Assembly: GCA_029101305.1 (NCBI GenBank)
Contig: JAQXQS010000163.1
Span: 1 to 39,970, forward strand
Direction of reading: 5' to 3'
DNA: 39,970 bases
Source: Clostridia bacterium
GTDB taxonomy: Bacteria > Bacillota > Clostridia > Lachnospirales > Lachnospiraceae
The notes below the pieces were generated by a model, which ran no database searches, was not told where the DNA came from, and saw nothing but the letters and a program-made list of their open reading frames with translations. Below are positions 7,831-33,307 of the stretch, piece after piece. Made by a program: the position numbers and the translations under genes. The first letter of the stretch is position 1. Each line of letters starts with the position of its first letter.

Positions 7831-7893
7831 GTCATTATTGAATAGAAATCTGTCACGATTGGACAACATTACCAATTGCTTTTGTGCTATACT
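7831..7893 (+). promoter_or_regulatory. GH3-1 promoter with class A LytTR-like direct repeats
   Basis: GTCATTATTG (7831-7840) and GTCACGATTG (7852-7861) match at 8 of 10 positions with a 21-bp period. Exactly 26 bases later comes an extended -10, TGC-TATACT (7885-7893). The same boxes, spacing and register recur upstream of the DUF1593 and GH106 genes. The leader to the ATG is about 210 bases and is rich in palindromes. Confidence 0.7.
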
Positions 7894-8034
7894 ACCAAAA
7901 AATAAGCAAGCTTTTTGGTAAAATAGACAAAAGCGGCTGCAATTTGCGTATGAAAATTGACAGTCTGCGCAAGAAATGTACCGTGAACGGTAAAATCTGT
8001 TATAGTACTACCATAAAAGATAAGCTTACGCAAC
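7893..8034 (+). promoter_or_regulatory. Long GH3-1 leader with several palindromes
   Basis: TACCAAAAA (7893-7901) and TTTTTGGTA (7912-7920) are perfect 9-bp arms right at the expected transcription start. TACCGT-GA-ACGGTA (7979-7992) is a perfect palindrome. TTTGCGTAT (7943-7951) and TCTGCGCAA (7964-7972) are 21 bp apart and read on the minus strand as class B-like boxes. TTACGCAAC (8026-8034) is another class B-like box. There is no credible ORF here. Confidence 0.5.
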
Positions 8035-8106
8035 ACCCAGGCATAAATGGAAAGGACGGCTGTCCAAATATGCCGAGGTGGTGCAAATGATAAAAGGAGG
8101 GAGCTT

Positions 8107-11100
8107 ATGAGCAACAAGAAAAAGTCCGCAGGTCTGTGGAGAGGACTTACATCTGTATCAGCCAGTCTTCTTGCAGTGACCGTGGGCGCATCGGCTATCG
8201 TGGATGCCAATGCGGCATTCATCAATACACGTCTTGGAGTTTCCAGCTACAAGGTCGTAGATACCAGTAACGGAGAGAAAACAGATTCCACTTATTTCAA
8301 ATCTGAGTTCTCAAGCCTTGATGAGGTAATCGCAGCAAAAGATGCTCTCGCAGCAGAGATTGCATCTGAAGGAACTGTATTATTCAAAAATGAAGATACA
8401 ACCCTTCCTCTTGATACTTCTTCTGACAAGGTCACCCTTTGGGGATTAAACTCCATTAATCCTACTCTGGGTGGTATGATCGGATCCTCTGTTTCCATCG
8501 ATGCGGAAGCAGGTCAGAAGCAGTATGATATCCAGACCGCACTGACCGAGAAGGGCTTCTCACTGAATCAGGATATGCTGGATCTGTACAGCAGCGAAGA
8601 TGTAAACGGTACATATGGCAGAAAGAATGGACATTCCTTACAGCCATCTTTTGGAACCATGTATGAGAATCCGGCAGCTTATAACGTTGGCGAAGCACCG
8701 GAGAGCATTTATGATGATGACGTTCTGAAATCAGCAGACGACACAGTTGCACTGGTTGTGATTTCCCGTGATAGTTCAGAGGCTTCTGACTATAACCCGA
8801 ACATGACAAGCGCAAATGAGGAAGACAGCTACGAGCGTCCTCTGGCACTTTCCGATAATGAGAAAGCTATGATCGAGCTTGCGAAACAGCACAGCACAAA
8901 GGTTGTAGTTCTTCTTAACACAAACAACCCGGTTGAGATCGACGACCTGAAGAACGATGATGGAATCGGTGCAATCGTATGGGCTGGCGAGCCAGGTGCA
9001 AACGGATTCCTTGGTGTAGCAGATGTTCTTTCCGGTGAGGTGAACCCATCTGGTCACATCTCTGACACATATGCAGTAAATTCCACATCTGCTCCGGCAA
9101 TGGTAAATTATGGTGTATATCTTTACACTAACAATTCCCAGGCTGGTTCTGATGCAGTTCTTACAGAGGAAAACAAAGGTGACTGGTATCTGGTAGAATC
9201 CGAAGGAATCTACACCGGTTACAAATACTATGAGACAAGATACGAAGACGAAGTTCTGGGACAGGGAAATGCAGACACCACAGAAGGTTCTTCAAGCGGT
9301 GATGCATGGAACTATGCAGAGGAAGTAAGCTATCCATTTGGATATGGACTTTCCTATACCACATTTGAGCAGAAGCTTGAATCTGTAGATGTACAGGTTG
9401 GTGGAACTGCAACAGCTAAGGTTAACGTAACCAACACAGGTGACGTTGCTGGTAAATCTGTAGTTCAGCTGTATGTACAGTCTCCATATACAGAGGGCGG
9501 CCTTGAGAAATCTGCTATCCAGCTGATCGGATATGGAAAAACACAGGTTCTTGAGCCAGGTGCTTCCGAAGAAGTAACCATCGAATTTGATCCTCTTTAC
9601 ATGGCAAGCTATGATGAGGAAGCTGTGAAAGCAGACGGAACACAGGGTGCATGGTCACTGGAAGCCGGCGATTATTATTTCGCAATTGGTAACGGTGCAC
9701 ATGAGGCTCTGAACAATGTTCTGGCAAACAAGAACGGAAATGAAGATGGACTTGTAAAAATTGCTGAGACAGACGAGATCAATGCAGACAATGCAATCAA
9801 ATGGAATCTTGCAGATACAGATATTGAGACCTATTCCACTGGCGTTCAGAATGAGCTGCAGGATATGAACATCAACAATCTGATTGAGAACACAGTTGAG
9901 TATACTACAAGATCTGACTGGTCCAAGGGCTGGGAGCCTGTAGAGGCTATCACACCTACAGATGCTATGATGGTTGGTCTTACTGATCAGCTGTATGAGC
10001 TTACCGAAAATGACGGTGATGGCAATGGCATTACCTGGGGTGCAGACAATGGTCTGAAACTGATTGACATGATGAAGCTTGATGAAAACGGCAACTATGC
10101 CGGGGCAATCGACTTCGATGATCCGATGTGGGATCAGCTTCTGGATGAGGTTACTCTGGATGAGGCAATCCAGTTTATTGAAAAAGCAGGTGATGACTTT
10201 GAGAATATCGATTCCATCCAGCTTGCAAGAGTTTATGCAAACGATGGTCCTCTGGGATACACCGGTGACCAGGTTGGCGGTTACTTCGTAAGATGGTCCA
10301 AAGACCTTTCTGATGAAGACTACTACACTGAAGAAACAGACGATAAGGCTACTTACCGTATGGCAACCATGCCGACAGAGCCGATCGTTGCAGCAACCTT
10401 CAACAAAGAGCTTGTTGAAAGAGAAGGTGAGCTTCTCGGAGAAGATGGTCTGTGGGCAAATGAGAGTTCTATCTTTGCACCAGGTCTGAACCTTCACAGA
10501 ACAGTTTATTGCGGACGTAACCATGAGTATTATTCAGAGGATTCCGTCCTTACAGCTAACATGGGAAATGCTTTTGCAATCGGATGCAAGAACAAAGGAA
10601 CCATGTCAGAGCCGAAGCATTTCGCATTTAACCATCAGGAAGCAAACCGTTCCGGTCTGTCTACATTCATGACAGAGCAGGCAGCCCGTGAAAATGAGCT
10701 TCGTGGATTTATGATGTGCATGAGTAACAACAATGCACAGGGTGTTATGACAGCATTTAACCGTGCAGGTACTTCTTTCGTAGGTGCTTACAAGAACCTT
10801 CTTGACAACATTGCAAGAGGTGAGTGGGGTTACCAGGGATGGTTTGTAACCGATATGATCAACGGTGCAGACTACATGAACTGGAGAGACGTTACAGCAG
10901 CAGGCGGCGGTGGAACACTGACATCTTCCGCATATGATACTTCTACAATCGGTGCTATGGCAGATTCCAAGAAAGCAATCGAGAAGGATGTAAACTTCCA
11001 GCAGATGATGAAGAAGAATCTGAAATACTTCCTGTATCAGCTGGTACAGAGTAATGCAATGAACGGAATCAGTTCCACAACTGAGATCCAGGCTGTAAGA

Positions 11101-11211
11101 ACCTGGTATCAGAATGCACTGGTTGGCGCAGAAGCAGCATTCGCTGTACTGACAATCCTGTTCCTGATCATGACGATCCTGAAAACCATTAAACCTAAAA
11201 AAGAAGCGTAA
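8107..11211 (+). CDS. Membrane-anchored GH3 glycoside hydrolase 1, circularly permuted (C-domain first)
   Basis: The start is set at 8107 by aaggaggg directly upstream. An in-frame ATG at 8047 has no such site. The product is 1034 residues. The domain order is reversed relative to most GH3 enzymes: N-terminal membrane anchor (~15-35), GH3 alpha/beta-sandwich C-domain (~45-330, EGTVLFKNED), fibronectin-III-like domain (~410-535, from FGYGLSYTTFE), then the GH3 TIM-barrel domain (~670-960) with nucleophile Asp916 in GWFVTDM. A C-terminal helix (~1003-1024) and a lysine tail follow. This order is known from Butyrivibrio and Ruminococcus beta-glucosidases. Both ends appear membrane-inserted, leaving the catalytic part outside the cell. 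It is followed by the four-helix protein gene, probably in one operon. Beta-glucosidase is the likeliest activity but beta-xylosidase and others are possible. Confidence 0.9.
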   Translation: MSNKKKSAGLWRGLTSVSASLLAVTVGASAIVDANAAFINTRLGVSSYKVVDTSNGEKTDSTYFKSEFSSLDEVIAAKDALAAEIASEGTVLFKNEDTTLPLDTSSDKVTLWGLNSINPTLGGMIGSSVSIDAEAGQKQYDIQTALTEKGFSLNQDMLDLYSSEDVNGTYGRKNGHSLQPSFGTMYENPAAYNVGEAPESIYDDDVLKSADDTVALVVISRDSSEASDYNPNMTSANEEDSYERPLALSDNEKAMIELAKQHSTKVVVLLNTNNPVEIDDLKNDDGIGAIVWAGEPGANGFLGVADVLSGEVNPSGHISDTYAVNSTSAPAMVNYGVYLYTNNSQAGSDAVLTEENKGDWYLVESEGIYTGYKYYETRYEDEVLGQGNADTTEGSSSGDAWNYAEEVSYPFGYGLSYTTFEQKLESVDVQVGGTATAKVNVTNTGDVAGKSVVQLYVQSPYTEGGLEKSAIQLIGYGKTQVLEPGASEEVTIEFDPLYMASYDEEAVKADGTQGAWSLEAGDYYFAIGNGAHEALNNVLANKNGNEDGLVKIAETDEINADNAIKWNLADTDIETYSTGVQNELQDMNINNLIENTVEYTTRSDWSKGWEPVEAITPTDAMMVGLTDQLYELTENDGDGNGITWGADNGLKLIDMMKLDENGNYAGAIDFDDPMWDQLLDEVTLDEAIQFIEKAGDDFENIDSIQLARVYANDGPLGYTGDQVGGYFVRWSKDLSDEDYYTEETDDKATYRMATMPTEPIVAATFNKELVEREGELLGEDGLWANESSIFAPGLNLHRTVYCGRNHEYYSEDSVLTANMGNAFAIGCKNKGTMSEPKHFAFNHQEANRSGLSTFMTEQAARENELRGFMMCMSNNNAQGVMTAFNRAGTSFVGAYKNLLDNIARGEWGYQGWFVTDMINGADYMNWRDVTAAGGGGTLTSSAYDTSTIGAMADSKKAIEKDVNFQQMMKKNLKYFLYQLVQSNAMNGISSTTEIQAVRTWYQNALVGAEAAFAVLTILFLIMTILKTIKPKKEA

Positions 11212-11223
11212 TCGGAGGTGCGG

Positions 11224-11622
11224 ATGATGAATAAGACAAAAAAATCAATCGGACTGTATCTGACGCTTGTAGCAGGCATTATCGCCATTGTAGAAGCAAT
11301 TTACTATGGCAAAGTAATGTATACTTTCCAGCCAGTATATTATTTCCTGGCAGCAGCAATCGTCCTTGCGGTACTTTCCTTTGTACTGGTTGGTTTCAAC
11401 AAAGTGATCACCGGATTTATCCCGGTTGTAAATGCAGTATTAATGGCAAGCGCAGCAGTATGGAGCGCTTCCGTAATGGTAAACCAGATCGGTTATGTAG
11501 TATCCGGACTGGACGGAATTGACACAATCATGAGCTTTATTATCTTCTGCAGCCTGGCAGTAGTTGGTATGATCATTAATATCGTAGCATCTTTCCTGCC
11601 GGTAGCTAAAGAAGCAGAATAA
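11224..11622 (+). CDS. Small four-helix membrane protein of unknown function
   Basis: About 132 residues with four hydrophobic segments (roughly residues 10-28, 38-58, 63-85 and 100-122). I do not recognise the family. A ggagg at 11214-11218 serves ATG 11224 or 11227. A GTG at 11218 overlaps that site and is unlikely to be the start. It begins only about a dozen bases after the GH3-1 stop, so the two are almost certainly co-transcribed. This makes a partner role for the membrane-anchored GH3 plausible (assembly, tethering or product handling), though this is inferred only from position. Confidence 0.75.
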   Translation: MMNKTKKSIGLYLTLVAGIIAIVEAIYYGKVMYTFQPVYYFLAAAIVLAVLSFVLVGFNKVITGFIPVVNAVLMASAAVWSASVMVNQIGYVVSGLDGIDTIMSFIIFCSLAVVGMIINIVASFLPVAKEAE

Positions 11623-11658
11623 GAAATATCTGGAAATAAAAGTTTAGCTACAGTCACT

Positions 11659-11729
11659 GGGAACAGGCGCGTAGGCGACCTGTTTCCAGGATGAAGATGT
11701 AAGAAGTTAACTGCGCGGCATGCAGTTAC
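11659..11729 (+). other. Two hairpins without T tracts between the membrane protein and repeat-protein genes
   Basis: ggaacagg with cctgtttcc (~11660-11687) and taactgc with gcagtta (~11707-11728) can form two consecutive stems. Neither has a following T run, so they look like an mRNA processing or stabilising region, or attenuation, rather than a terminator. No gene lies here. Confidence 0.4.
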
Positions 11730-11750
11730 AATAGAAAAGGAGAGAAAATC

Positions 11751-12872
11751 ATGAAGAAAAAAGTTTTAGCACTTGTACTTGCAGCATCTATGGCAGCATC
11801 TATGGCAGCAACCGTTTCTGTATTCGCAGAGGCAGCTACTGCAACAGAGGCAGATCTTCCGGCAGAGGCACAGTTCGAGCCAAACAAAGACTACGACAAA
11901 TACACAGTAGTTGAGTATACAATCGAAGACATCCAGGCTGATCTTGTTTGCACAGTATCTGCAAAAGAAGACAACAGCGAGTTCTATCTTGAGTGCAACT
12001 TCTATGGTGACGACCAGATGACAAGAACTACTTATGATGGAAAAGAGTTCAAAGTAGAAGAGGATAAGACAGGCTTCATGGCTGGAGATACACCTGCAAT
12101 CCTTCAGAAAGCAATCGACCAGAACGTATGGGTAGCAATCGGTGATGGCGCAGCAGCTGACGATGCAGCAGCAGACGACGCTAAAGCAGACGACGCAAAA
12201 GAAATCAAAGGTGTAACAGAGGACAAGCTTCCGGCTGAGCCACAGTTCGAGGCTAACAAAGACTACGACAAATGGACAGTAGTAGAGTACACAATCGAAG
12301 ACATCCAGGCAGACCTTGTTTGCACAGTATCCGCAAAAGAAGATGACAGCGAGTTCTATCTTGAGTGCAACTTCTATGGCGATGACCAGATGACAAAGAC
12401 AACCTATGACGGAAAAGAGTACAAAGTAGAAGAAGATAAGACAGGCTTCATGGCTGGAGATACACCGGCAATTCTTGACAAAGCTCTTGAGCAGGATCTT
12501 TGGGTATACTTCGATAATGGAGCAGACGCAGCTGATGATGCAGCAGCTACAGACGGAGCAGCAGCTACAGCAGCAGACCTTCCGGCAGAAGCACAGTTCG
12601 AGCCAAACAAAGACTATGACGAGTACACAGTAGTAGAGTATACAATCGAAGACATCCAGGCAGACCTTGTTTGCACAGTATCTACAAACAAAGATCACAC
12701 AGAGTTCTATCTTGAGTGTAACTTCTACGGTGATGACCAGATGACAAAGACAACCTATGATGGAAAAGAGTACAAGGTAGAAGAGGATAAGACTGGCTTC
12801 ATGGCTGGAGATACACCTGCAATCCTTGACAAAGCAATCGAGCAGAACATCTGGGTTCCGATTGAGAAATAA
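11751..12872 (+). CDS. Secreted protein built of three near-identical 95-residue repeats (unrecognised family)
   Basis: 373 residues, with aaaggagag upstream of the ATG. A signal peptide (~1-26, ending near VFAEA) is followed by three copies of one domain at residues 36-130, 160-254 and 277-371. The copies are joined by Ala/Asp-rich linkers. Each unit starts LPAEAQFE, contains DYTVVEYTIED-like and DLVCTVS segments, two cysteines (DLVC and LECN), FYGDDQMT, and ends TGFMAGDTPAIL plus a WV motif. The two cysteines per unit could form a disulfide outside the cell. The protein is strongly acidic and has no anchor, catalytic motif or known binding motif. Codon use looks strongly biased, as in highly expressed genes. 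It lies in the GH3-1 gene cluster. A carbohydrate-binding, inhibitor or matrix role are all possible and unproven. Confidence 0.85.
   Translation: MKKKVLALVLAASMAASMAATVSVFAEAATATEADLPAEAQFEPNKDYDKYTVVEYTIEDIQADLVCTVSAKEDNSEFYLECNFYGDDQMTRTTYDGKEFKVEEDKTGFMAGDTPAILQKAIDQNVWVAIGDGAAADDAAADDAKADDAKEIKGVTEDKLPAEPQFEANKDYDKWTVVEYTIEDIQADLVCTVSAKEDDSEFYLECNFYGDDQMTKTTYDGKEYKVEEDKTGFMAGDTPAILDKALEQDLWVYFDNGADAADDAAATDGAAATAADLPAEAQFEPNKDYDEYTVVEYTIEDIQADLVCTVSTNKDHTEFYLECNFYGDDQMTKTTYDGKEYKVEEDKTGFMAGDTPAILDKAIEQNIWVPIEK
11856..12863 (+). repeat. Three in-frame tandem DNA repeats inside the secreted repeat protein
   Basis: Units of 285 bp at 11856-12140, 12228-12512 and 12579-12863 are near-identical at nucleotide level. 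They are separated by 87-bp and 66-bp linkers rich in gca/gac codons. The high identity suggests recent duplication or continuing gene conversion. Confidence 0.88.
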
Positions 12873-12941
12873 TTATCTGATTTAAAGATAAGCTTACACT
12901 TAAAATTTTATATACAGCATTTCGGTAACTGAGGTGCTGCA

Positions 12942-12979
12942 GCGAAAAGGGTGCCTTTGCCATGGGGCACCTTTTTCGC
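12942..12979 (+). terminator. Strong hairpin terminator after the repeat protein, just before regulator 2
   Basis: gcgaaaagggtgcc and gggcacctttttcgc pair over about 14 bp with A and T runs inside the arms, so it could work in either direction. Only about 30 bases separate it from the ATG of regulator 2. Confidence 0.75.
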
Positions 12980-13008
12980 GTAAAAAGAAATATTATGGGG
13001 GATTTGCT

Positions 13009-13722
13009 ATGTTGAGGGTGGCAATTGCAGAGGATAATCCAAAGGATCGGGAACGTCTTCAATCCTTTTTAAAACAATATGAAACAGAAAAAAATACGCA
13101 GATAGAAATAGCAGAATATACAGATGGAAGTAAGCTCCTGGAACAGTACCGCCCGTGCTATGATGTGATCTTTCTGGATGTGGAAATGCCGGAAATGGAT
13201 GGCATGAAAGCAGCCGAGAAAATCCGGGAAATGGATGAAGAAGTCATTCTGATTTTTATAACAAATATGGCGAAATACGCCATCCGGGGCTACCAGGTTC
13301 AGGCTCTTGACTATGTACTGAAACCAGTAAAATACGAAGCCTTTTCTGTAAAAATGGATAAGGTAAAACGTCTTGCGGAAAAGAAAAAAGATAAGAGCAT
13401 TACCATAAAAACAGGTACTACGACTCATCGGTTACAGCTTTCCCATATCCAGTATGTAGAAGTGGTACAGCATCTGCTGATCTTTCACACAGAGGATGGG
13501 GATTTTTCTACAAGAGGCGTATTGAAGGATGTAGAGTCTGTTCTTGAAGAGAACGGTTTTTATAAGTGTAATAAATGTTATCTGGTAAATCTGCGTCATG
13601 TGCGGAGTGTGCATGATGGGATGGCACTTGTAGGAAATGAGCAGTTACAGGTAAGCAGGGCACGAAAGAAAGCATTTACAGAGGCTGTGGCGGATTATAT
13701 CGGAGATATGCAAAGTATCTAA
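13009..13722 (+). CDS. LytTR-family response regulator 2 (AgrA-like)
   Basis: 237 residues from ATG 13009. An in-frame ATG at 12934 lies inside the upstream terminator and is rejected. The receiver domain has E8, D9 and Asp57 in VIFLDVEMP, FITN and LKPVK. The LytTR domain (~130-237) has SHIQYVEVVQHLLIF and CNKCYLVNLRHVRSV. It is closer to regulator 3 than to regulator 1 in the NxCYxVNL segment. Kinase 2 follows after 117 bp. The gene sits directly behind a strong terminator with little room for its own promoter, so read-through or a promoter within the repeat-gene 3' end may drive it. Confidence 0.93.
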   Translation: MLRVAIAEDNPKDRERLQSFLKQYETEKNTQIEIAEYTDGSKLLEQYRPCYDVIFLDVEMPEMDGMKAAEKIREMDEEVILIFITNMAKYAIRGYQVQALDYVLKPVKYEAFSVKMDKVKRLAEKKKDKSITIKTGTTTHRLQLSHIQYVEVVQHLLIFHTEDGDFSTRGVLKDVESVLEENGFYKCNKCYLVNLRHVRSVHDGMALVGNEQLQVSRARKKAFTEAVADYIGDMQSI

Positions 13723-13839
13723 AACGTTATTGTTCATAGAATGAATAGTAGTTCTAAGGATGCTTATTAGATAATGGTTCAATAGACAATAATTGTAAAG
13801 ATACTAAGTGAAATTAATTAGGCAGGACAGGAGAGAAAA

Positions 13840-15156
13840 ATGGAAAATTGGCTGCAGGGAATGGATGGCTTTTCCTATTGCATAGAGATGTTGGCGGCAT
13901 CTTTTTGCTTCTTCATTTTTTTGAAAAAAAGAAATCATTTCTGGATTCGGGTTGTAATCAGCGTAGGGGTACTGTTTGCGGCAAGCTTGATCATTTATCC
14001 ATATTTTACAGATATTACGAATGTATATAATTGGGTATGGTTTGTTTTTATTTTTGCATTAATAATTGCCATATGTTTTTTTTGCTGTGAGATCACGTGG
14101 AAAGACGCTGTTATGGCAGCTTCCTGTGGTGCATTGCTTCAGCATACAGCCTCTTCTCTTTTTATTGTAGTATTTTATCAGGGGATTATTCCAGAATTTT
14201 CTGGAATAAGATACTGGGGAATGTTTGCAGGCGTATATTTTCTGGGGACCTTTTTAATAGCGAGAAAGCTTCCAGATCAGGGGCATTATCATGTGAGTAA
14301 GGCTAATGCTGCGATTATGGCTGTTACAGTGCTAACAATTGTTCTGGTACTAAGTGTACTGGTGAAAAGTACCACCATTGATGTAATTGGAGTTGGAACA
14401 GCAAACAAAGAATATATAAAATTGTTCCGCTTAAATCAGATTTATGCACTTGGAGCCTGTGTTCTTGTGCTGGCGTTGGAAAGTATTTTGCAGCGTGAAC
14501 TTCGTATCCAGCAGACCCTATCCGAGAACAAAAACCTGTGGACACAGCGTCAGCTTCAGTACGAAATGTCCCGTGAAAATATCGCTATGATCACCCGCAA
14601 ATGTCATGACATGAAGCATCAAATCGAGGCACTGATCCAGACAGAAAGCCATTCCCAGAGACGCAGAAATTTCATAGAAGAAGTTCAGGATATGATCCAG
14701 GTTTATGACAGTGATGTACATACCGGAAACGAAGCGTTGGATACAATATTAATGGAAAAAGGACTGTATTGTAAGGTACATCATATTGACTGGACCTGTG
14801 TGGCAGACGGAAAATTATTGGAATTTATGGATGTAGTTGACCTGTTTACAGTCATGGGAAATGCTCTTGATAATGCTGTAGAAAGCGTGGAAAAACGCGA
14901 CAAGGACCAATACAAAAGCATTGGTGTACGGGTGTGGAAAAAAGATCTTTTTGCAGTGATTCAGGTGGAAAACTCCTTTGAAGGGGAGCTGAAAATGAAG
15001 GACGGTCTGCCTCTTACCAGCAAAGCAGACAAAGAAAATCATGGAATCGGAATCCGCAGTATCAAGTCAATTGTGGAGAAATATCAGGGAACTGTCAGTG
15101 TCCGTGTACAGGATGGAAACTTCGTTCTGACTATACTATTACCGATCATGTCATGA
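13840..15156 (+). CDS. GHKL sensor histidine kinase 2 (AgrC-like)
   Basis: 438 residues, with an acaggagag site before ATG 13840. Multiple hydrophobic helices occupy residues ~1-215. The phosphotransfer segment reads CHDMKHQIEAL with candidate His256. The N box (GNALDNAVESV) and G box (HGIGIRSIKSI) are intact. It is paired with regulator 2. A terminator follows almost immediately. The last codons overlap the conserved element shared with the GH3-1 upstream region, so the GH3-2 control region begins inside this gene. Confidence 0.92.
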   Translation: MENWLQGMDGFSYCIEMLAASFCFFIFLKKRNHFWIRVVISVGVLFAASLIIYPYFTDITNVYNWVWFVFIFALIIAICFFCCEITWKDAVMAASCGALLQHTASSLFIVVFYQGIIPEFSGIRYWGMFAGVYFLGTFLIARKLPDQGHYHVSKANAAIMAVTVLTIVLVLSVLVKSTTIDVIGVGTANKEYIKLFRLNQIYALGACVLVLALESILQRELRIQQTLSENKNLWTQRQLQYEMSRENIAMITRKCHDMKHQIEALIQTESHSQRRRNFIEEVQDMIQVYDSDVHTGNEALDTILMEKGLYCKVHHIDWTCVADGKLLEFMDVVDLFTVMGNALDNAVESVEKRDKDQYKSIGVRVWKKDLFAVIQVENSFEGELKMKDGLPLTSKADKENHGIGIRSIKSIVEKYQGTVSVRVQDGNFVLTILLPIMS

Positions 15157-15186
15157 AAATGACGGTTCATTCCAAAGCCCTTGCGA
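15141..15186 (+). repeat. Element shared with the region upstream of GH3-1 (copy 2)
   Basis: ACCGATCATG, 5 bases, AAAATGACGGTT, 4 bases, CCAA, then TTGCGA, with the same spacing as 7762-7807. It spans the 3' end of kinase 2 and runs into the terminator. Confidence 0.6.
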
Positions 15187-15208
15187 GGGCTTTTTCTTTT
15201 GCTATAAT
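15145..15208 (+). promoter_or_regulatory. GH3-2 promoter
   Basis: The -35 TTGCGA (15181-15186) and extended -10 TGC-TATAAT (15200-15208) have a 16-bp spacer. ATCATGTCAT (15145-15154) and TTCATTCCAA (15166-15175) share TCAT and a later CA at a 21-bp period. The second box ends 27 bases before the -10. This is a degenerate class A-like arrangement. The promoter overlaps the terminator of kinase 2. Confidence 0.55.
15174..15200 (+). terminator. Terminator after kinase 2
   Basis: aaagccc (15174-15180) and gggcttt (15187-15193) form a compact stem with a 6-base loop, followed by tttctttt. Confidence 0.8.
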
Positions 15209-15239
15209 TTACCATAAATAAAAAAGGAGAGGAAAAAAC

Positions 15240-18232: not shown

Positions 18233-18317
18233 CGAAAACTGACAAATTAAAAAGTCAGTTTCGAACCATAAAATAGTCATAATTGGTTAACTTGAGAGAA
18301 AAATCATGTGTTATGAT
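18233..18317 (+). promoter_or_regulatory. DUF1593 gene promoter with class A direct repeats and an overlapping inverted repeat
   Basis: GTCAGTTTCG (18254-18263) and GTCATAATTG (18276-18285) are 22 bp apart. The second differs by one base from the GH3-1 and GH106 box. Exactly 26 bases on is the extended -10 TGT-TATGAT (18309-18317). The first box is also the right arm of an inverted repeat with cgaaaactgac (18233-18243). Confidence 0.68.
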
Positions 18318-18371: not shown

Positions 18372-19988
18372 ATGGCTATGAAGAAAAGAATAATGGCACT
18401 GGCTTTAATCGGCGTTATGGTGTTTGGCACAGCTGCACAGGTACAGGCTGGAAGAATCGTAAAGCCAATAGATGAACAGCTGGCTGAAAGAGAGGTGCTT
18501 ACAACTCCGCAGGAGAAACGCATCCGTCTTGGTGAGGATGGGAAACCACGTGTTATCATCACCTCAGACTTGGAAATAGATGACATGAATTCCTTTATTC
18601 ACCAGAGCCTGTTTTTTAACGAGATTGATCTGGCTGGAATCGTTGTATCCGGATCCTTCTGTCACTTTACCGGAGACGGGGAACATACCCAGAAAGAAGT
18701 AAACGACCATATCCAGAACCGCGAAGAAGGAGCCCTGGATATGAAAGAATTCCGTGCCCAGCCACTGGACTGGCTTTCCAATCTCTGGAATAATGAGTAT
18801 GCAGAAGCATATGAATATCTTTCCCAGAATGCGGAAGGATATCCTACACCGGATTATCTGACCAGCATTACCAAGATTGGAAATGTGCAGTTTGAAGGAG
18901 ATGTAAGAGAAGATACAGAAGGTTCCAACCTGATCAAAGAAGCGATTCTGGATGATGATGAAAGAAACCTTTTCATCCTTAACTGGGGCGGATTTAATAC
19001 GGTAGCAAGAGCATTACTCTCCATTTATGAGGAATATTCTGAGACAGACCAGTGGGATGAAATTTACCAGAAGGTATGTGATAAAGTTCTGATCAGCGGA
19101 AATGGACAGGATTTCACATTTGATGATTATATTGCAGATAAATACCCGGATCTTGTACTGGCACATGGTAACTGCGGGTATGCCGGATATTCCACTGCAA
19201 TTAACGGACAGGCAGATGCTTTGTATACTTTCCAGGCAGACTGGCTGAAAGAGAATATCAAATTTGACCATGGTTCTTTGATGGGCTTATATAAACTGGT
19301 AAATGATGGACAGCATCTTGAAAATGAAGAAGACAGATTCCAATTTGGTGAAACCAATACCGTATATGATAAAGAATACAACGACTATGATTTTATCGCA
19401 GAGGGAGACAGCAGCAGTATTATCGGCCTGTATTCCTGCGGACTCCGTGGATTTGAAAATGGTGCATTCGGAAGCTATGGCGGAAGATATTCTTATACAA
19501 AAGCAAATGGTGAAGATGCAGGTTATCTGTCTACTTTATCTGGCGGCGTAGTTCCTACCCAGTATGTAAATCCGGAGACAAACAATATCGAGAAATACAA
19601 TCCGTTTTTACTGGATTTCCAGCTTGAGTGGGCAGCACGTGCTGACTGGTGTGTAAATACTTACGAAAATTGCAATCATGCCCCAGTTGTAGAAATGGAA
19701 GAAAAAGACTTCACTGCAGCACCAGGAGAGACAGTTTCCTTCGCTGCAACCGTATCTGATCCGGATGGGGATGATTGCACAGCTGTGTGGACAACAGAGC
19801 CAACTGGCGGTGTATATAGTGGAAAAGATGAAACTATTTACAACTGGACCCAGGACAGTGCGGAAGGTTCTTTCACAATTCCAGAAGATGCAGCTTCCGG
19901 TGACTGCTTCTGCCTCACACTGAAGGTTCAGGACAATGCGGATGCGGTAATGACAAGATATGCGCAGGTTATGGTTACCGTAGCTTAA
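18372..19988 (+). CDS. Secreted DUF1593 / Sde182-like nucleoside-hydrolase-fold protein
   Basis: 538 residues. aaaggag (18361-18367) can serve ATG 18372 or 18378. A signal peptide ends near VQA (residue ~26). The nucleoside-hydrolase-like domain begins with VIITSDLEIDDMNSF (Asp66, Asp70, Asp71), which corresponds to the metal-binding Asp cluster of the fold, and runs to ~430. A C-terminal immunoglobulin-like domain with an SDPDGDD motif covers ~435-538, as in the family named after the cellulose-binding protein Sde_0182. The enzymatic role of this family is not settled. The context suggests glycoside or nucleoside-like bond cleavage on plant material. It has its own class A promoter and a terminator. 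Confidence 0.82.
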   Translation: MAMKKRIMALALIGVMVFGTAAQVQAGRIVKPIDEQLAEREVLTTPQEKRIRLGEDGKPRVIITSDLEIDDMNSFIHQSLFFNEIDLAGIVVSGSFCHFTGDGEHTQKEVNDHIQNREEGALDMKEFRAQPLDWLSNLWNNEYAEAYEYLSQNAEGYPTPDYLTSITKIGNVQFEGDVREDTEGSNLIKEAILDDDERNLFILNWGGFNTVARALLSIYEEYSETDQWDEIYQKVCDKVLISGNGQDFTFDDYIADKYPDLVLAHGNCGYAGYSTAINGQADALYTFQADWLKENIKFDHGSLMGLYKLVNDGQHLENEEDRFQFGETNTVYDKEYNDYDFIAEGDSSSIIGLYSCGLRGFENGAFGSYGGRYSYTKANGEDAGYLSTLSGGVVPTQYVNPETNNIEKYNPFLLDFQLEWAARADWCVNTYENCNHAPVVEMEEKDFTAAPGETVSFAATVSDPDGDDCTAVWTTEPTGGVYSGKDETIYNWTQDSAEGSFTIPEDAASGDCFCLTLKVQDNADAVMTRYAQVMVTVA

Positions 19989-20002: not shown

Positions 20003-20049
20003 ATAAAAGAGAAATACTTTTCTTTTGAAAGAGGGGTATTTCTCTTTTT
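20003..20049 (+). terminator. Terminator after the DUF1593 gene (copy 1 of a duplicated hairpin)
   Basis: agagaaatac and gtatttctcttttt form the stem. The whole ~47-bp block recurs at 21305-21354 with one inserted A and one G/A change. Confidence 0.8.
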
Positions 20050-21304: not shown

Positions 21305-21354
21305 ATAAAAAGAGAAATACTTTTCTTTTGAAAGAGAGGTATTTCTCTTTTTTT
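21305..21354 (+). terminator. Terminator after the Rpn gene (copy 2 of the duplicated hairpin)
   Basis: The sequence is almost identical to 20003-20049, in the same orientation. The stem agagaaatac/gtatttctct is followed by a run of T. Confidence 0.8.
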
Positions 21355-21357
21355 AGT

Positions 21358-21421
21358 TTACGCTGAAAAAGTGCAAGGTTATGCAAAATGCATTGCGGGT
21401 ATTCGCTTTTTTAGATAAATT
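21358..21421 (+). promoter_or_regulatory. Tandem alpha/beta-hydrolase promoter with class B direct repeats
   Basis: TTACGCTGA (21358-21366) and TTATGCAAA (21379-21387) have an exact 21-bp period. TAAATT (21416-21421) starts 37 bases after the second box start. The same boxes and the same 37-base register occur at 31990-32053 upstream of another alpha/beta-hydrolase gene. The block caaggttatgcaa is also shared (12 of 13) with 32006-32018. Confidence 0.62.
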
Positions 21422-23251: not shown

Positions 23252-23325
23252 GCACAAAGGAGATTCTTGGAGATGCCCCCGAAAGGTCGTCTCCATTTTG
23301 CTAATATTATTTTGGGAGTTTTGAA

Positions 23326-24303: not shown

Positions 24304-24386
24304 GACAATAATGTTTCAAAAATTGATGCAAAGCTAATGCCTGATGCGGAATATGTTAAGATTAATAAGGCTGTATGAGTGTGGCT

Positions 24387-24429
24387 AAAATTTATAGCTA
24401 TAGCAATATAGTAAAAATTCATAGCTATA
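24387..24429 (+). repeat. Two 16-bp direct repeats with palindromic core upstream of GH78
   Basis: aaaatttatagctata (24387-24402) and aaaattcatagctata (24414-24429) match at 15 of 16 positions, 27 bp apart. Each contains the palindrome tatagctata or atagctat. They lie about 75 bases upstream of the candidate -10, a possible operator pair. Confidence 0.45.
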
Positions 24430-24447
24430 TTTGAATTGGAAATTCAA

Positions 24448-24510
24448 TTTACGTACAAATATATGCACTTTGCGTTTGAAACATTATTTTTACTGTGAAA
24501 ATGCTACAAT
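24448..24510 (+). promoter_or_regulatory. GH78 promoter with candidate 21-bp-spaced repeats
   Basis: TTTACGTACA (24448-24457) and TTTGCGTTTG (24469-24478) match at 6 of 10 positions with a 21-bp period. Exactly 26 bases later is the extended -10 TGC-TACAAT (24502-24510). The geometry is the same as for class A promoters but the box is different and weaker. The remaining 130-base leader shows nothing else. Confidence 0.45.
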
Positions 24511-24640
24511 GTATTTTAGTAAAGTGAGAAAATTACGAAAGTGATTGACGAACTGCAGCCTATATGATGAAAGAAAAGGCATAGAGTATTTTATTGCAGG
24601 TGTTTCCTGCGAGCTATTACGAATCAAGGAGGAGAAATTC

Positions 24641-28228: not shown

Positions 28229-28290
28229 TTATTAAAGCTTTGTAACTTATCATAGATAAAATCCTCCACTTTATTATGATAAAAGATAGA

Positions 28291-28332
28291 AAAATGTCAG
28301 GAATGGGAAGAAAACTGTTCCTGGCATTTTTT
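28291..28332 (+). terminator. Terminator after GH78
   Basis: tgtcaggaa and ttcctggca pair within an A-run and T-run frame, ending in tttttt. It may work in both directions. Confidence 0.8.
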
Positions 28333-28403
28333 CTGCATTTTAAACTGTTTCTTTCAAAAGTCATGTTATCATTTTGATTGTGGATGTGTGAAAATGCGTG
28401 GAA

Positions 28404-28506
28404 ACTTTTACTTGCTAAATCGTAAAAGTCTGTTAGAATATGTATAATTAAACGTATAGGTAATACTGGTAACGCTCATTATGGTGGCGTAAAAAAACTT
28501 TTTTAC
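28404..28506 (+). promoter_or_regulatory. Promoter region of the RelA/SpoT-like gene with two inverted repeats
   Basis: ACTTTTAC (28404-28411) and GTAAAAGT (28422-28429) are perfect 8-bp arms with a 10-base spacer, just upstream of a TATAAT (28443-28448). A second palindrome, GTAAAAAA with TTTTTTAC (28489-28506), lies in the leader. The shared GTAAAA half-site suggests one repressor. No LytTR-like direct repeat was found here. Confidence 0.45.
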
Positions 28507-28533
28507 ACATGTTCGCAAGACGAGGTGACGATT

Positions 28534-29523
28534 ATGGTTACATTAAACGACTATTTATATTCAGGAGACACAGTTTTAAAGATTTTACAAAGATATACAG
28601 AGGATTTGCGAAAGGAAGCCAAAAAGACACACAACGAGATTGATCTTGTGCACAGTAATTTCCTGATCCAGATCACTGAACTGCTGGAACATAACGATTT
28701 CCTTACCGCCCAGTCCCAGAAAATTCGCGAATTTTATAAATATATGGCACATGAGTATCCTTTTCTTGCTTTTACCTTTAAGGGAAGAATCAAGTCGCTG
28801 ATCCGGGCAGAGGAGAAATTTAACGGCTACATTGTGGAATACATTTATGATTATTACCGGGAGAAAGGAACCTATCCGCCAGTAGCGGAGCTGAAAAATA
28901 AGCTAAGTTGTTTCCGGGATTTTATTGCATATAGGATTGTAGTCTGTATGCCAAGATGCCATCTGAAGCCTGGGGAAGACCAGGAGCAGGCATCCATTCG
29001 TTATCTATATCAGATTGCCAATGTGTTGCCGGGATTTCTGGAGGAGCGGGGATTTACAGCGGAGCCTGCCCATGGTGTGAAGCTAAGTTCTTCGGATTTA
29101 CTGGATGACAATGTGAAGCCTTATTACAGAGACTATATCTGTGGCACCAGCGAGTACGGATACCAGTCCTTACATATCACCTTCTACGATAACAGTTCCA
29201 GATCTTATATGGAGGTACAGCTGCGTACGCAGAAGATGGATGACATTGCAGAAATCGGGCCAGCCAACCATCTGGGCTATGAGAAGCGGCAACAGGATGA
29301 GCGTGCCAGAAGAGATGTGATTCCGGAAGGGGAATGCGTTTATTTTGATGAGGCATATGAGAGAGGAATGCGGCTTCTCTCCTTGGAACTGGCGGATCTG
29401 GATGTGAATATGTTTTCCGCAGTGAACAACAGTCTGATCAATGATGGATGTGGGCTGTTCCGTGGACGGCTGATTTTGCCTTATGAGCATTTATCCAGGT
29501 TCCAGAATGATGTGATCGATTAA
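28534..29523 (+). CDS. RelA/SpoT-domain protein, probable (p)ppGpp synthetase without hydrolase domain
   Basis: 329 residues from ATG 28534. A GTG at 28525 overlaps the gaggtga binding site and is rejected. There is no HD hydrolase domain, TGS or ACT domain. The synthetase core carries FKGRIKS, CFRDFIAYRIVV, the YGYQSLH nucleotide-binding loop and MEVQLRTQKMDDIAE, followed by ANHLGYE, so the active-site set looks complete. Helical segments flank it at 1-75 and ~270-329. It is longer than a minimal small alarmone synthetase (~210-230 residues). It may be a stress alarmone synthetase. Related toxin-type enzymes exist, but no antitoxin-like partner gene is adjacent. Confidence 0.82.
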   Translation: MVTLNDYLYSGDTVLKILQRYTEDLRKEAKKTHNEIDLVHSNFLIQITELLEHNDFLTAQSQKIREFYKYMAHEYPFLAFTFKGRIKSLIRAEEKFNGYIVEYIYDYYREKGTYPPVAELKNKLSCFRDFIAYRIVVCMPRCHLKPGEDQEQASIRYLYQIANVLPGFLEERGFTAEPAHGVKLSSSDLLDDNVKPYYRDYICGTSEYGYQSLHITFYDNSSRSYMEVQLRTQKMDDIAEIGPANHLGYEKRQQDERARRDVIPEGECVYFDEAYERGMRLLSLELADLDVNMFSAVNNSLINDGCGLFRGRLILPYEHLSRFQNDVID

Positions 29524-29566
29524 AAGAGTTTGTTTAGTTTTGGGTTTGACATTAATTAAAAATGGG

Positions 29567-29610
29567 AGTCCTGCTGACGCTATGTAGAGTAGCTGCAGCA
29601 GGGCTTTTTT
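29567..29610 (+). terminator. Terminator after the RelA/SpoT-like gene
   Basis: agtcctgctg (29567-29576) and cagcagggct (29596-29605) form a 10-bp stem followed by six T. Confidence 0.82.
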
Positions 29611-29618
29611 GTACGCTT

Positions 29619-29688
29619 TAGAGTGCACAAAAAAATCATTCCTGCAATCTGCACGCCCCACTTTGCTGTATATTTTTCGCTCTTTTAG
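29619..29688 (-). repeat. Inverted repeat copy 1, matching the 3' end of kinase 3
   Basis: The reverse complement aligns with 31885-31955 over ~70 bp with one indel. The central ~36 bp differ at only two positions. Read on the minus strand it encodes LKERKIYSKVGRADCRNDF, against LKEGKIVSKVGRADRRNDF at the end of kinase 3. It is either a remnant of another kinase gene end or one copy of a dispersed element. Confidence 0.8.
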
Positions 29689-29738
29689 TTGGCATAGCAT
29701 GTATGGACAATTGTGCAATGTGCACATCTATATCTCCG

Positions 29739-29801
29739 TACACGGCAAAAAAACAACAAATTACGTTAAAATGAAATTTATAAAAGATAAAATGCTATAA
29801 T
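29739..29801 (+). promoter_or_regulatory. Regulator 3 promoter
   Basis: An extended -10, TGC-TATAAT (29793-29801), is present. ATTACGTTAA (29760-29769) ends 26 bases before it, and a weaker TACACGGCAA (29739-29748) lies 21 bp further up. The geometry fits possible LytTR autoregulation. The first box is poor, so this is tentative. Confidence 0.4.
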
Positions 29802-29893
29802 TGTGCACAAGATAATATACGGAAATCAATACATGAACCTATGTGCTGGAAAATGCTATTTATCGGAGAACGGCAATTTTGAAGGAGGAAACA

Positions 29894-30604
29894 ATGCTTC
29901 GCATCGCAGTCGTAGAAGATAACGATACAGATAGAAAAGTCATAACAGACGCAATCGCAACCTTTGAAAAGGAAGAAAATGAAAACTTTCATATTTCAGA
30001 ATTTCACGACGCCATGGATTTTCTGGAACAGAGGAAAACAGATTTCCAGATTGTTTTTATGGATATTCAGATGCCCTATATGGATGGTCTGGAGGCTGCA
30101 AGGAAATTCAGGGAAAGAAATACAGAGGCCGCGTTGATTTTTATAACCAGTATGGCACGGTATGCAGTGCACGGCTATGAAGTAGATGCCATGGACTATA
30201 TTGTGAAGCCATTGAATTATTATAGCTTCAACCTGAAAATGAAAAGAGCTGTGAAATACGTCCATTCCAGGGAGCAACAACAGTTTATCATTCAAACGAA
30301 GAATGGTCTGGTGAAGGCCTCTATTGGGGACATAAAATATGTGGAAGTGCTAGGCCATAAAGTAATCTACCATCTGGAGGAAAAAGATGTGGAGGCATAT
30401 GGCAGTATGAGAAAAGTGATGGAAGAGCTTCCAGAGAACACTTTTTCATTATGTAATAACTGCTATTATGTGAATTTATACTATGTAACATCTGTAGAAG
30501 GATACATAGCAAGTCTGGGAGATATTCAGCTGCAGATCAGCCATCCGAGAAAGAAAAGCTTTATGAAAGCATTAAACGATTACGTGGGAGGCTGCAGCGC
30601 ATGA
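29894..30604 (+). CDS. LytTR-family response regulator 3 (AgrA-like)
   Basis: 236 residues from ATG 29894, with aaggagg (29882-29888) directly upstream. An ATG at 29843 in frame lacks a site. The receiver domain has E8, D9 and Asp57 in IVFMDIQMP, FITS and VKPLN. The LytTR domain (~130-236) has GDIKYVEVLGHKVIY and CNNCYYVNLYYVTSV, similar to regulator 2. Its stop codon overlaps the kinase 3 start by 4 bases (ATGA), so the two are translationally coupled, unlike pairs 1 and 2. The pair is framed by the inverted repeat at 29619-29688 and 31885-31955. Confidence 0.93.
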   Translation: MLRIAVVEDNDTDRKVITDAIATFEKEENENFHISEFHDAMDFLEQRKTDFQIVFMDIQMPYMDGLEAARKFRERNTEAALIFITSMARYAVHGYEVDAMDYIVKPLNYYSFNLKMKRAVKYVHSREQQQFIIQTKNGLVKASIGDIKYVEVLGHKVIYHLEEKDVEAYGSMRKVMEELPENTFSLCNNCYYVNLYYVTSVEGYIASLGDIQLQISHPRKKSFMKALNDYVGGCSA

Positions 30605-31956
30605 CGGTATGGGACACGATATGGAAATGTGAGCTTGCATTTGAAATGCTGTTATTCAGCTTTATAATGTGTCGGCATTTTGTGAAAAAATCTTTTTTCT
30701 GGCTGCGTGTAATCGCAGGAAGCGGAATCTGTCTCTTTGGCTCGGCACTGATTGTTAGTAGCACAAGGACCATGTGGGAAAGCATTCCGGGAGTGATCAT
30801 CATATTTTTGCTCAGCATGCTGACCATGGTATTCTGCTATGAAAATCCTGTGAGGGAAATCTTTTTTACCAGTGTAGCGGCATATATTACCCAGATTATC
30901 TTATATAGCGTGTTTATTCTTTTGCAAACATTTTTGAATATAAGCGGTGGAATTGCATTTATTGGTTTATATGTGGTCTTGCTTCTGGTCGCGGTATGTC
31001 TGGTGCTTCATTTTATGGAAAGAAAGCTGGAAGAAATGGAGCATATTACGGTTCAGCCAGGGTTCCTTTTGTTGTTGCTGTTTACGGCGGGGATGCTTGA
31101 TACTGTGTTTAAATTTTATATGGTGGACAACATGCTGGGAATAGAATCCAAGGAAATTTTTCTGGCATGGAAATCTTTTTCCATGGTTGCCTGTCTGCTG
31201 CTTCTGGCTGTACAGTTCGGAACCTTGAAACGAAATTCTATTTCTGCACAGAAACAGCAGCTTGAGAATTTGCTTTACCAGAAACAGCAGCAGTACGAGC
31301 TTTCCAGGAAAAATATGGAACTGATCAATATAAAATGCCATGATCTGAAGCACTGGTTTAAAAGGATCCAGGGGTTATCGGGGAGCGCATACGAAAAAGA
31401 AGCACAGGAAATACAGAAGGCACTGACGATTTATGACTCCATGTTCCAGACTGGAAACCAGGTGCTTGATACGATTCTGACAGAGAAGAAACTGTACTGC
31501 GAATATAACAAAATTAACATGACCTGTATTGCAGAGGGCGAAAAACTGGATTTTTTATCGGAAAGTGAGATCTGTTCCCTGTTTGGAAATATTGTGGACA
31601 ATGCAGTGACTGCAGTTTCCCATCTAAAAGACGAAGAAAAGCGTACCATTAATATTCTGGTTCGGACGCGGGGGAATTTTCTCTCCATTCATGAAGAAAA
31701 TTATTTCGAAGGAGAACTGAAGGAGTCGGCAGATGGTTTCGAAACGACGAAGAAGGATAAGGCGCATCATGGCTTTGGGCTGAAGAGTATTCGAATGATT
31801 ACAGAAAATTACCACGGGAACATGTCGGTGACGGCGGAGAATGGGGTATTTAATATTAATATCCTGATTCCACTGGTCACGCCGCTGAAAGAGGGCAAAA
31901 TCGTCAGTAAAGTGGGGCGTGCAGATCGCAGGAATGATTTTGGGGGCACACTCTAG
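30601..31956 (+). CDS. GHKL sensor histidine kinase 3 (AgrC-like) with a repeat-derived C-tail
   Basis: 451 residues. The ATG overlaps the stop of regulator 3. There are about six or seven hydrophobic helices within residues 1-205. CHDLKHWFKRI carries candidate His247, with N box GNIVDNAVTAV and G box HHGFGLKSIRMI. The kinase fold should end around NINILIPLV, as kinases 1 and 2 do. Here it continues for about 22 basic residues (SKVGRADRRNDFGGTL) that are encoded by the inverted-repeat copy at 31885-31955. The tail therefore looks acquired by insertion or recombination of that element. Whether it affects function is unknown. Confidence 0.92.
   Translation: MTVWDTIWKCELAFEMLLFSFIMCRHFVKKSFFWLRVIAGSGICLFGSALIVSSTRTMWESIPGVIIIFLLSMLTMVFCYENPVREIFFTSVAAYITQIILYSVFILLQTFLNISGGIAFIGLYVVLLLVAVCLVLHFMERKLEEMEHITVQPGFLLLLLFTAGMLDTVFKFYMVDNMLGIESKEIFLAWKSFSMVACLLLLAVQFGTLKRNSISAQKQQLENLLYQKQQQYELSRKNMELINIKCHDLKHWFKRIQGLSGSAYEKEAQEIQKALTIYDSMFQTGNQVLDTILTEKKLYCEYNKINMTCIAEGEKLDFLSESEICSLFGNIVDNAVTAVSHLKDEEKRTINILVRTRGNFLSIHEENYFEGELKESADGFETTKKDKAHHGFGLKSIRMITENYHGNMSVTAENGVFNINILIPLVTPLKEGKIVSKVGRADRRNDFGGTL
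31885..31955 (+). repeat. Inverted repeat copy 2, inside the 3' end of kinase 3
   Basis: Partner of 29619-29688 in opposite orientation. It starts at ctgaaagagg and ends at the ctcta just before the stop. The block agtggggcgtgcagat plus gcaggaatgatttt is shared almost without change. Confidence 0.8.
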
Positions 31957-31989
31957 ATTAGACAAGATATTTGGCGATGTGTTTGAAGT

Positions 31990-32053
31990 TTATGCTATAA
32001 AAATACAAGGTTACGCAATAAAAGTAGAAACTGATGTTTCTTTATGCTAAATT
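31990..32053 (+). promoter_or_regulatory. Alpha/beta-hydrolase promoter with class B direct repeats
   Basis: TTATGCTAT (31990-31998) and TTACGCAAT (32011-32019) have an exact 21-bp period. TGC-TAAATT (32045-32053) has TAAATT starting 37 bases after the second box start, exactly as at 21416. A further TTATGCTAA (32042-32050) overlaps the -10. Confidence 0.65.
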
Positions 32054-32156
32054 GAAAGTAAAAGACGCACGTAGAAAGCACGATTTTCAATTCGGTGGAA
32101 ACCATACAAAGCAGTGGGATTCTGTGTGCAATCAGGAGAAAATGGAGGAATCAAGC

Positions 32157-33200
32157 ATGTTGAAAAAAAGAATGTTAATTGTTTTGGGGATGGCAGCAGT
32201 ATTAAGTGCAAGCTGTGTAAGTGCAACTGTATGGGCAGAAGAGAATGCAGAGACACAGACAGAATCTGAAACGGAGACTACAGATGAGTCCGTGACTGAA
32301 AATGATTCTACAGAAGAGACCGGAGAAGAGGCAGCAGAAGCGGACGTTGCAGAGGAAGAGAATCCAGAGATCCAGGAGGGCTACACTACAGAATTAGAAG
32401 GTTGTACAAAAGTGGTTTCCTGGTGTAAAAATGGCGATAACAATATTTATGGTCAGTTTTACTACCCTGCAGATTTTGACGAAACGAAAACTTATCCAGT
32501 GGTTATCATGAGCCATGGAATCGGTTCTACTTCCCAGATGGTAGAGCGTGCCAAATGGCCGGAGAAAGCAGCGCAGGACGGATATGTGGTTTATACCTTT
32601 GATTTCTGTGGCGGATCTTTAAATGGAAACAGTGATGTAGACTTTATGGATATGACTGTAATGACTGAAAAAGAAGACTTAAGCGCTGTTATGGACTTTG
32701 TGAAATCAAAAGATTATGTAGACCAGGAGCACCTGTTTCTTCTGGGACAGAGTCAGGGAGGACTGGTCAGTGCATTTACAGCTGCTGACAGAAAAGAGGA
32801 TGTAGCGGCAATGGTGCTGGTTTATCCGGCACTTTGCATTGCTGATAATGCCCGTGAAACCTACGCTTCAGCAGAGGATATCCCGGAAGGTCAGGCGGAA
32901 ATGCCTGTTGGAACAGTTGGATCTGAATATGTGAAAGCTGTGTACGATCTTGATGTATATGGAACAATCAGTGCATACGATGGAGATGTAATGATCATTC
33001 ATGGAATTAACGATATGCTGGTTCCTTACAGTTATTCTGAAAAAGCAATGGAGGAAGCATACACAAGCGAGGGCTCTGTGCTGGTACCAGTCTATGGAAA
33101 ACGTTCTACTCATGGATTTGAGATGAATTTTGAAGAGGGCAGAGATTATGCCGAGACAGTTGGAATGGAATTTCTGGATGCCCATCTTGGAAACGAATAA
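32157..33200 (+). CDS. Secreted single-domain alpha/beta hydrolase (paralogue of the 23326 gene)
   Basis: ggagg (32144-32148) sits 8 bases before ATG 32157. In-frame ATGs at 32034 and 32142 would push the signal peptide inward and are less likely. 347 residues: signal peptide to ~24 (VWAEE), an unusually acidic spacer (~25-72, mostly Glu/Thr/Ser), then the hydrolase domain with Ser199 in LLGQSQGG, Asp in IHGINDMLVP and His in STHGFEM. The acidic spacer could extend the enzyme from the cell wall, though no anchor is visible. It follows two-component pair 3 and carries class B boxes, so regulator 3 is a natural candidate controller. Confidence 0.83.
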   Translation: MLKKRMLIVLGMAAVLSASCVSATVWAEENAETQTESETETTDESVTENDSTEETGEEAAEADVAEEENPEIQEGYTTELEGCTKVVSWCKNGDNNIYGQFYYPADFDETKTYPVVIMSHGIGSTSQMVERAKWPEKAAQDGYVVYTFDFCGGSLNGNSDVDFMDMTVMTEKEDLSAVMDFVKSKDYVDQEHLFLLGQSQGGLVSAFTAADRKEDVAAMVLVYPALCIADNARETYASAEDIPEGQAEMPVGTVGSEYVKAVYDLDVYGTISAYDGDVMIIHGINDMLVPYSYSEKAMEEAYTSEGSVLVPVYGKRSTHGFEMNFEEGRDYAETVGMEFLDAHLGNE

Positions 33201-33243
33201 GTTTGTAAGAGATAATCGGTAAACTATACTGACTTCCAAATAA

Positions 33244-33307
33244 GTCATTTTTGAAATGGAAAAAGGTCATTATTGTTATACATTGAAATACGAGAATGTG
33301 TTATTTT
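33244..33307 (+). promoter_or_regulatory. GH106 gene promoter with class A direct repeats
   Basis: GTCATTTTTG (33244-33253) and GTCATTATTG (33266-33275) match at 9 of 10 positions, 22 bp apart. The second box is identical to the GH3-1 box at 7831-7840. The extended -10 TGT-TATTTT (33299-33307) begins exactly 26 bases after it. A TTATGCAAA class B-like box (33311-33319) lies just downstream. Confidence 0.7.

Follow-up and report, generated by a model that had tools for sequence, protein, structure and literature searches.

The 39,970-nucleotide stretch of DNA analyzed here (the window) belongs to contig JAQXQS010000163.1 of a Clostridia bacterium of the Lachnospiraceae (assembly GCA_029101305.1). 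It carries three promoters, named A, B, and C, in which two short direct repeats (boxes) stand at a fixed distance from an extended -10 element, upstream of genes for a family 3 glycoside hydrolase (GH3-1), a DUF1593 protein, and a putative alpha-L-rhamnosidase of family GH106. Together with a fourth site, D, located on another contig (C50), they are discussed below as putative operators of a LytTR-family response regulator. An original prediction, made from the sequence alone, had placed three two-box promoters in the window, and inspection of the sequence found them at the predicted coordinates. The sites and the window genes they precede are the following:

7831..7893, + strand: operator A and extended -10 promoter of GH3-1 (47.9 bits in the matrix scan)
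18254..18317, + strand: operator B and extended -10 promoter of the DUF1593 gene (50.9 bits)
33244..33307, + strand: operator C and extended -10 promoter of the GH106 gene (49.2 bits)
C50:23512 (L055:7513-7576), outside the window: operator D (49.4 bits)
8047..11211, + strand: GH3-1, a family 3 glycoside hydrolase in which the C domain comes first and the N domain second, putative target of A (Pfam)
18372..19988, + strand: DUF1593 protein (Sde182 nucleoside hydrolase-like in Pfam), putative target of B
33363..36572, + strand: GH106, putative alpha-L-rhamnosidase and putative target of C (Pfam)

The predicted spacing, namely a period of 21 or 22 followed by 26 base pairs (bp) to a TGN-TANNNT element, is borne out at A, B, and C. 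Operator A consists of GTCATTATTG (7831-7840) and GTCACGATTG (7852-7861), with a period of 21, and is followed after 26 bp by TGC-TATACT (7885-7893, hexamer at 7888-7893). In operator B, GTCAGTTTCG (18254-18263) and GTCATAATTG (18276-18285) have a period of 22, and the same 26 bp lead to TGT-TATGAT (18309-18317, hexamer at 18312-18317). Operator C combines GTCATTTTTG (33244-33253) with GTCATTATTG (33266-33275), again with a period of 22 and 26 bp before TGT-TATTTT (33299-33307, hexamer at 33302-33307). The boxes are 10 bp long and separated by a spacer of 11 bp in A and 12 bp in B, C, and D, while the distance from box 2 to the extended -10 is 26 bp in all four sites, whose promoters share TGTGN-TANNNT.

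Site D emerged from searches of the whole assembly (3,521,169 bases in 226 contigs, 93.74% complete). A pattern derived from the boxes of site C, allowing up to three mismatches, gave five matches, against one for a reversed control: C, B, D (two mismatches), and two others with three mismatches. D was found by its boxes alone, its promoter and target gene playing no part in the search; exactly 26 bp separate it from TGA-TAATGT, and a second DUF1593/Sde182 gene is located 100 bp downstream. The period-21 pattern matched A and three further places with three mismatches, its reversed control giving four matches. A T-rich match at C185:864 was set aside, as no -10 could be seen by eye at the correct position.

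The genome-wide two-box scan suggested with the original prediction was run with a sequence-only matrix built from A-D, and it returned four strong matches, none of them random. These score 47.9-50.9 bits, whereas the next in the genome, among the matches listed, reach 13.1 and 10.2 bits, and the best among those listed for 63 other genomes of the genus reaches 16.6 bits (a looser first pass selected 82 candidates per genome for scoring, with strict filters on). Similarly, the two-box pattern has four matches in this genome, none in the 63 other genomes of the genus (no control matches), and none among the other 396 members of a 397-genome family sample (two control matches). Because pattern and matrix were fitted to A-D, the informative part lies in the zeros and the score gap. 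The four sites hold a near-exclusive place in this genome.

The signal is a GTCA box pair plus a fixed promoter distance. On the + strand of the window, GTCA word pairs with a period of 20-23 occur at A, B, and C only; the - strand has four other pairs. When any 4-mer was allowed to recur with a period of 21 or 22 and the observed 26 bp to TGNTANNNT, on both strands, GTCA was found three times and seven other words once each; leaving the word free meant that the GTCA of the original prediction was not favored. No 4-mer reached two occurrences in this geometry in 300 dinucleotide shuffles, in which GTCA appeared once in 2 of the 300. Simpler measures set limits on this result: single boxes occur no more often than chance predicts (GTCATTATTG with at most two mismatches has 47 matches for 54.75 expected), a strict two-box pattern with up to three mismatches matched A alone (0.24 expected), and in a comparison of promoter pairs by their best ungapped 33-mer, B versus C (24 of 33 positions) only equaled the best of three shuffles. 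Across A-D, mean pairwise identity is 0.80 and 0.87 in the two boxes and 0.71 in TGTGNTANNNT (the extended -10), whereas elsewhere it falls to 0.47 (spacer), 0.43 (linker), 0.37 (upstream), and 0.30 (downstream). As flanks, spacer, and linker are not conserved like the boxes and the -10, the sites are not recent copies of one promoter.

The original prediction also counted three LytTR regulators at the locus. Pfam agrees, identifying three REC-LytTR proteins, each followed by a GHKL kinase:

4077..4772, + strand: RR1, REC-LytTR response regulator, candidate binder (Pfam)
4873..6147, + strand: HK1, GHKL histidine kinase (Pfam)
12934..13722, + strand: RR2, REC-LytTR response regulator, weakly preferred candidate binder (Pfam; elimination argument)
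13840..15156, + strand: HK2, GHKL histidine kinase (Pfam)
29843..30604, + strand: RR3, REC-LytTR response regulator, candidate binder (Pfam)
30601..31956, + strand: HK3, GHKL histidine kinase (Pfam)

These pairs head three gene runs, which read RR1-HK1-GDSL esterase-[A]-GH3-1, RR2-HK2-GH3-2-[B]-DUF1593, and RR3-HK3-esterase-[C]-GH106. On C50, a LytTR-kinase pair and a GH3 gene lie about 4.5 kb from D and its DUF1593 gene; the C domain comes before the N domain in this GH3, a layout it shares with GH3-1 and GH3-2. The genome has 18 LytTR matches, and LytTR-kinase pairs are found near all four sites. A neighbor scan covering 11 of the 18 matches found a glycoside hydrolase beside 9 (RR1-RR3, and those on C50, C114, C51, C11, and C147 and one on C215); the pairs on C206 and C13 had none in the one following gene scanned for each. 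By eye, signal-like N-termini are present in the window DUF1593 protein, GH106, and the C50 DUF1593 protein, and GH3-1 has a hydrophobic N-terminal stretch in a consensus. The proteins encoded behind A-D are probably exported.

Two other features of these runs can be mentioned. An inverted repeat, ACCGATCATG...AAAATGACGGT, lies upstream of GH3-1 (7762-7787) and of GH3-2 (15141-15166, where it spans the end of HK2), and at those two places only within 531,355 scanned bases of the genome. A 33-base terminator-like stretch occurs twice with one mismatch, after the DUF1593 gene (20005-20037) and after a YhgA-like transposase-family gene (21308-21340), as if the latter had arrived with its flank copied.

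Sites A-D are probably operators of one LytTR-family response regulator of the activator type, governing a four-promoter sub-regulon. According to PMC4847170, nearly all LytTR sites consist of repeats of 9-11 nt with spacers of 11-13 nt, and have structure but not consensus in common; the geometry of the boxes, which the original prediction had read as the LytTR mode of binding, fits these figures. The YpdB site in the Escherichia coli yhjX promoter is likewise a 10-bp direct repeat, GGCATTTCAT, and CATT is found in both motifs, although sequence, regulator, and targets differ and binding at A-D is predicted only (PMC4847170). The VirR boxes of Clostridium perfringens are also paired, imperfect direct repeats; they lie immediately upstream of the promoter, on one helix face and at a constant promoter-relative position in all targets, as in A-D. 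They differ in having 7-8 nt between repeats, a figure that varies with how the repeats are delimited, and a -35, where A-D have 11-12 nt and no recognizable -35 (PMC2838878). The HdrR/BrsR sites of Streptococcus mutans, 9-bp direct repeats 11-12 bp apart with an extended -10, share the layout of A-D, not the sequence (PMC6193735).

In the proposed mechanism, a LytTR dimer, presumably phosphorylated, would occupy both direct repeats, which lie on one face of the DNA with about two helical turns between them. Its box-2 subunit, at a constant 26 bp from the -10, would aid RNA polymerase at extended -10 promoters, and box 1 would be free to shift by 1 bp. With a 17-bp spacer, the bases at the -35 position, 3 bp after box 2, are AACATT, AACTTG, TACATT, and AGCCTG, which by eye do not resemble TTGACA. 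With an invariant box-2 distance and an extended -10 but no -35, the arrangement suggests activation through contact with RNA polymerase, rather than repression; such contact has been described for the VirR, HdrR, and AgrA promoters (PMC2838878, PMC6193735, PMC4227749). Compared with A, box 1 of B, C, and D lies 1 bp farther out, but the position of box 2 does not change, which is consistent with box 2 as the half nearer the polymerase. The regulon would comprise four promoters on two contigs, those of GH3-1, DUF1593, GH106, and the C50 DUF1593 gene. The GH3, DUF1593, and GH106 sub-regulon of the original prediction is thereby supported, and D adds a fourth promoter to it.

Other direct repeats are found in LytTR loci. 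Intergenic TGNTANNNT promoters were scanned for direct repeats matching in at least 8 of 10 positions and ending 25-27 bp before the -10, in 15 LytTR stretches (283,296 bases, 90 promoters) and in 13 control stretches from contigs without a LytTR match (248,059 bases, 48 promoters). At periods of 20, 21, 22, and 23, the LytTR stretches gave 3, 6, 2, and 0 repeats and the controls 1, 0, 0, and 1; all other periods from 12 to 45 gave 0-2 repeats in either set. B, at 7 of 10, falls outside these 11 repeats. The window itself holds at least one further shared direct repeat of the operator's design: TTAYGCTNNAAAAN6GRTTAYGCA, with a period of 21, precedes two window esterase genes (21358-21385 and 31990-32017) and a LytTR gene on C70 (C70:4874-4901, L166). 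It has three exact matches in the genome and six more at three mismatches (two control matches), and the two esterase upstream regions have 26 of 33 positions in common, compared with at most 24 in three shuffles. Upstream of the GDSL esterase gene behind RR1-HK1, a TTTGCCA direct repeat with a period of 21 is followed by TGATAATGT (6352-6413). GH3-1 has a candidate second promoter at 7943-8006, where TGCGTATGAA and TGCGCAAGAA, with a period of 21, stand 25 bp before TGTTATAGT; its box TTTGCGTWTGAA recurs in the GH78 upstream region (24469-24510), there 24 bp before TACAAT, with a poor first box. Outside the window, TTTATGAAAT occurs twice after the LytTR-kinase pair of C206 and a similar repeat follows that of C147, the two regulators being 48% identical. 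On both contigs (L163 near 8110 and L165 near 8105, - strand), the order is LytTR-kinase pair, TTATGAAAT-type direct repeat, and GtrA-like gene, followed on C147 by a GH43 gene. Lastly, a GTACCARTTG repeat precedes the C50 LytTR gene. Differing repeat sequences at a like period fit LytTR sites that share structure and not consensus (PMC4847170).

Several observations weigh against a LytTR operator. The contrast between LytTR and control stretches is by itself modest (11 of 90 versus 2 of 48 at periods 20-23), three of the 11 repeats are A, C, and D themselves, and the C50 stretch was chosen because of D. At a threshold of 7 of 10, the LytTR counts are 4, 7, 5, and 2 for periods 20-23, but a count of 5 is also seen at periods 12 and 29. 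Applied to 12 stretches of other genomes of the genus (9 picked for RR2 homologues and 3 for GH106), the same scan yielded one repeat, for which reason the period 20-22 architecture is claimed for this genome only. Box 2 would end 3 bp before a nominal -35, while S. mutans repeats lie 4-11 bp from it, with a bias to 10 bp elsewhere (PMC6193735). Furthermore, binding and expression at A-D are predictions from sequence, and in relatives the operator did not turn up at the corresponding genes. Fourteen loci of GH106 homologues were inspected and L021-L054 scored with the box matrix; B, C, and D score 24.8-30.0, compared with at most 17.4 for two-box scores outside this genome. Some of the loci end at contig edges, with a short or missing upstream region. 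Of 10 DUF1593 loci, one is D, and the other nine lack a pair of the A-D type (type 1), three of them (L074, L078, and L081) being cut by contig ends. Six (L082-L087) of the best 80 of 514 relatives from a scan with RR1-RR3 showed no type 1 operator. Among the RR2 homologue loci in the genus, one look-alike GTCA pair lies behind a kinase, in genome G037; it was rejected as an operator and attributed to chance, because GTCA pairs there (16) are no commoner than those of the letter permutations (0-37).

A different protein family also has to be considered. AraC proteins likewise bind direct repeats about 21 bp apart, and both operator contigs carry a gene pair encoding a YesN-type AraC response regulator and a DUF3502 solute-binding protein (46% and 41% identical between contigs, respectively), which on C50 ends just upstream of site D; this too counts against a LytTR operator. 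That the sites belong to the YesN regulator is nevertheless unlikely. The genome has 38 HTH_18 matches, and the YesN pair could serve transport alone. AraC/YesN half-sites are long and two-part, read by two helix-turn-helix motifs, and each half-site here, as far as four sites can tell, is a single compact run of 10 conserved bases, which looks more LytTR-like. In addition, the control stretches, 6 of 13 with an AraC match, show no peak at periods 20-22.

With LytTR proteins as the preferred binders, each promoter might instead be bound by its own neighboring regulator, all using the same box, every site having a LytTR-kinase pair no more than a few kb away. This is more doubtful still, as the four neighboring regulators are dissimilar (22-39% identity where listed), the C50 LytTR gene is preceded by GTACCARTTG instead of GTCATTATTG, and other repeats follow RR1-HK1 and RR3-HK3. 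Chance, or inheritance of copies of one promoter, can practically be discounted: the single-box frequency does equal the chance expectation, but the shuffle test, the confinement of conservation to the boxes and -10, the matrix score gap, and targets belonging to three unrelated families all speak against it.

As for the single LytTR regulator that would bind A-D, the balance leans toward one of RR1-RR3. RR2 is weakly and tentatively preferred, given that its gene run includes B and that its surroundings yielded no other repeat; repeats of other sequence follow the RR1-HK1 and RR3-HK3 pairs. Kinship was dropped as a way of naming the binder, since RR1-RR3 form no group apart from the other LytTR proteins of the genome (a comparison covering the regulators other than those of L005 and L006). 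RR2 is closest to the C114 regulator (45%), RR1 is equally close to those of C114 and C206 (38%), and RR3 is closest to RR2 (39%), then C114 (38%). Two further points tell against a shared regulator: RR1-RR3 are mutually only 34-39% identical, and the LytTR protein beside D, which has its own repeat before its gene, stands apart from them (25% identity to RR2, 22% to RR1).

In the studies cited here, LytTR proteins control virulence, bacteriocins, or pyruvate uptake. In the S. mutans LytTR Regulatory Systems, a LytTR protein is paired with a membrane inhibitor and controls its own operon (PMC6193735). The present loci instead combine REC-LytTR proteins with GHKL histidine kinases, and the matrix scan placed none of A-D before a LytTR gene; receiver domains, GHKL kinases, and the lack of a type 1 site at a LytTR gene set them apart from HdrRM-type systems. 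In a study of gut Firmicutes, LacI and AraC proteins are the main regulators of glycan loci (PMC5320581). The polysaccharide utilization loci of Roseburia and E. rectale resemble the window in placing glycan enzymes beside regulators, and the Ros-7 locus lists a LytTR response regulator and kinase, although LacI and AraC regulators prevail and operators are not given in the excerpt (PMC5320581). No report of a LytTR operator before glycan genes was found in the open-license literature searched, mostly through listings. The element is most likely a putative LytTR docking site of a known kind, with a new sequence and new targets.

A broader arrangement is conceivable, though held with some reserve: glycan enzymes may be run by LytTR-kinase pairs with their own boxes and a common geometry, cross-wired so that one box type serves several loci. 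Examples would be GTCATTATTG at four promoters and the TTAYGC repeat at two esterase genes and a distant LytTR gene; in addition, two box types may stand in tandem at GH3-1. If true, it would be operators, not operons, that combine the enzymes into sets. DUF1593 would be tied twice to a switch common to a rhamnosidase and a GH3 enzyme. With a defined sequence, spacing, and promoter at four sites, a role of LytTR-kinase pairs in glycan use becomes directly testable.

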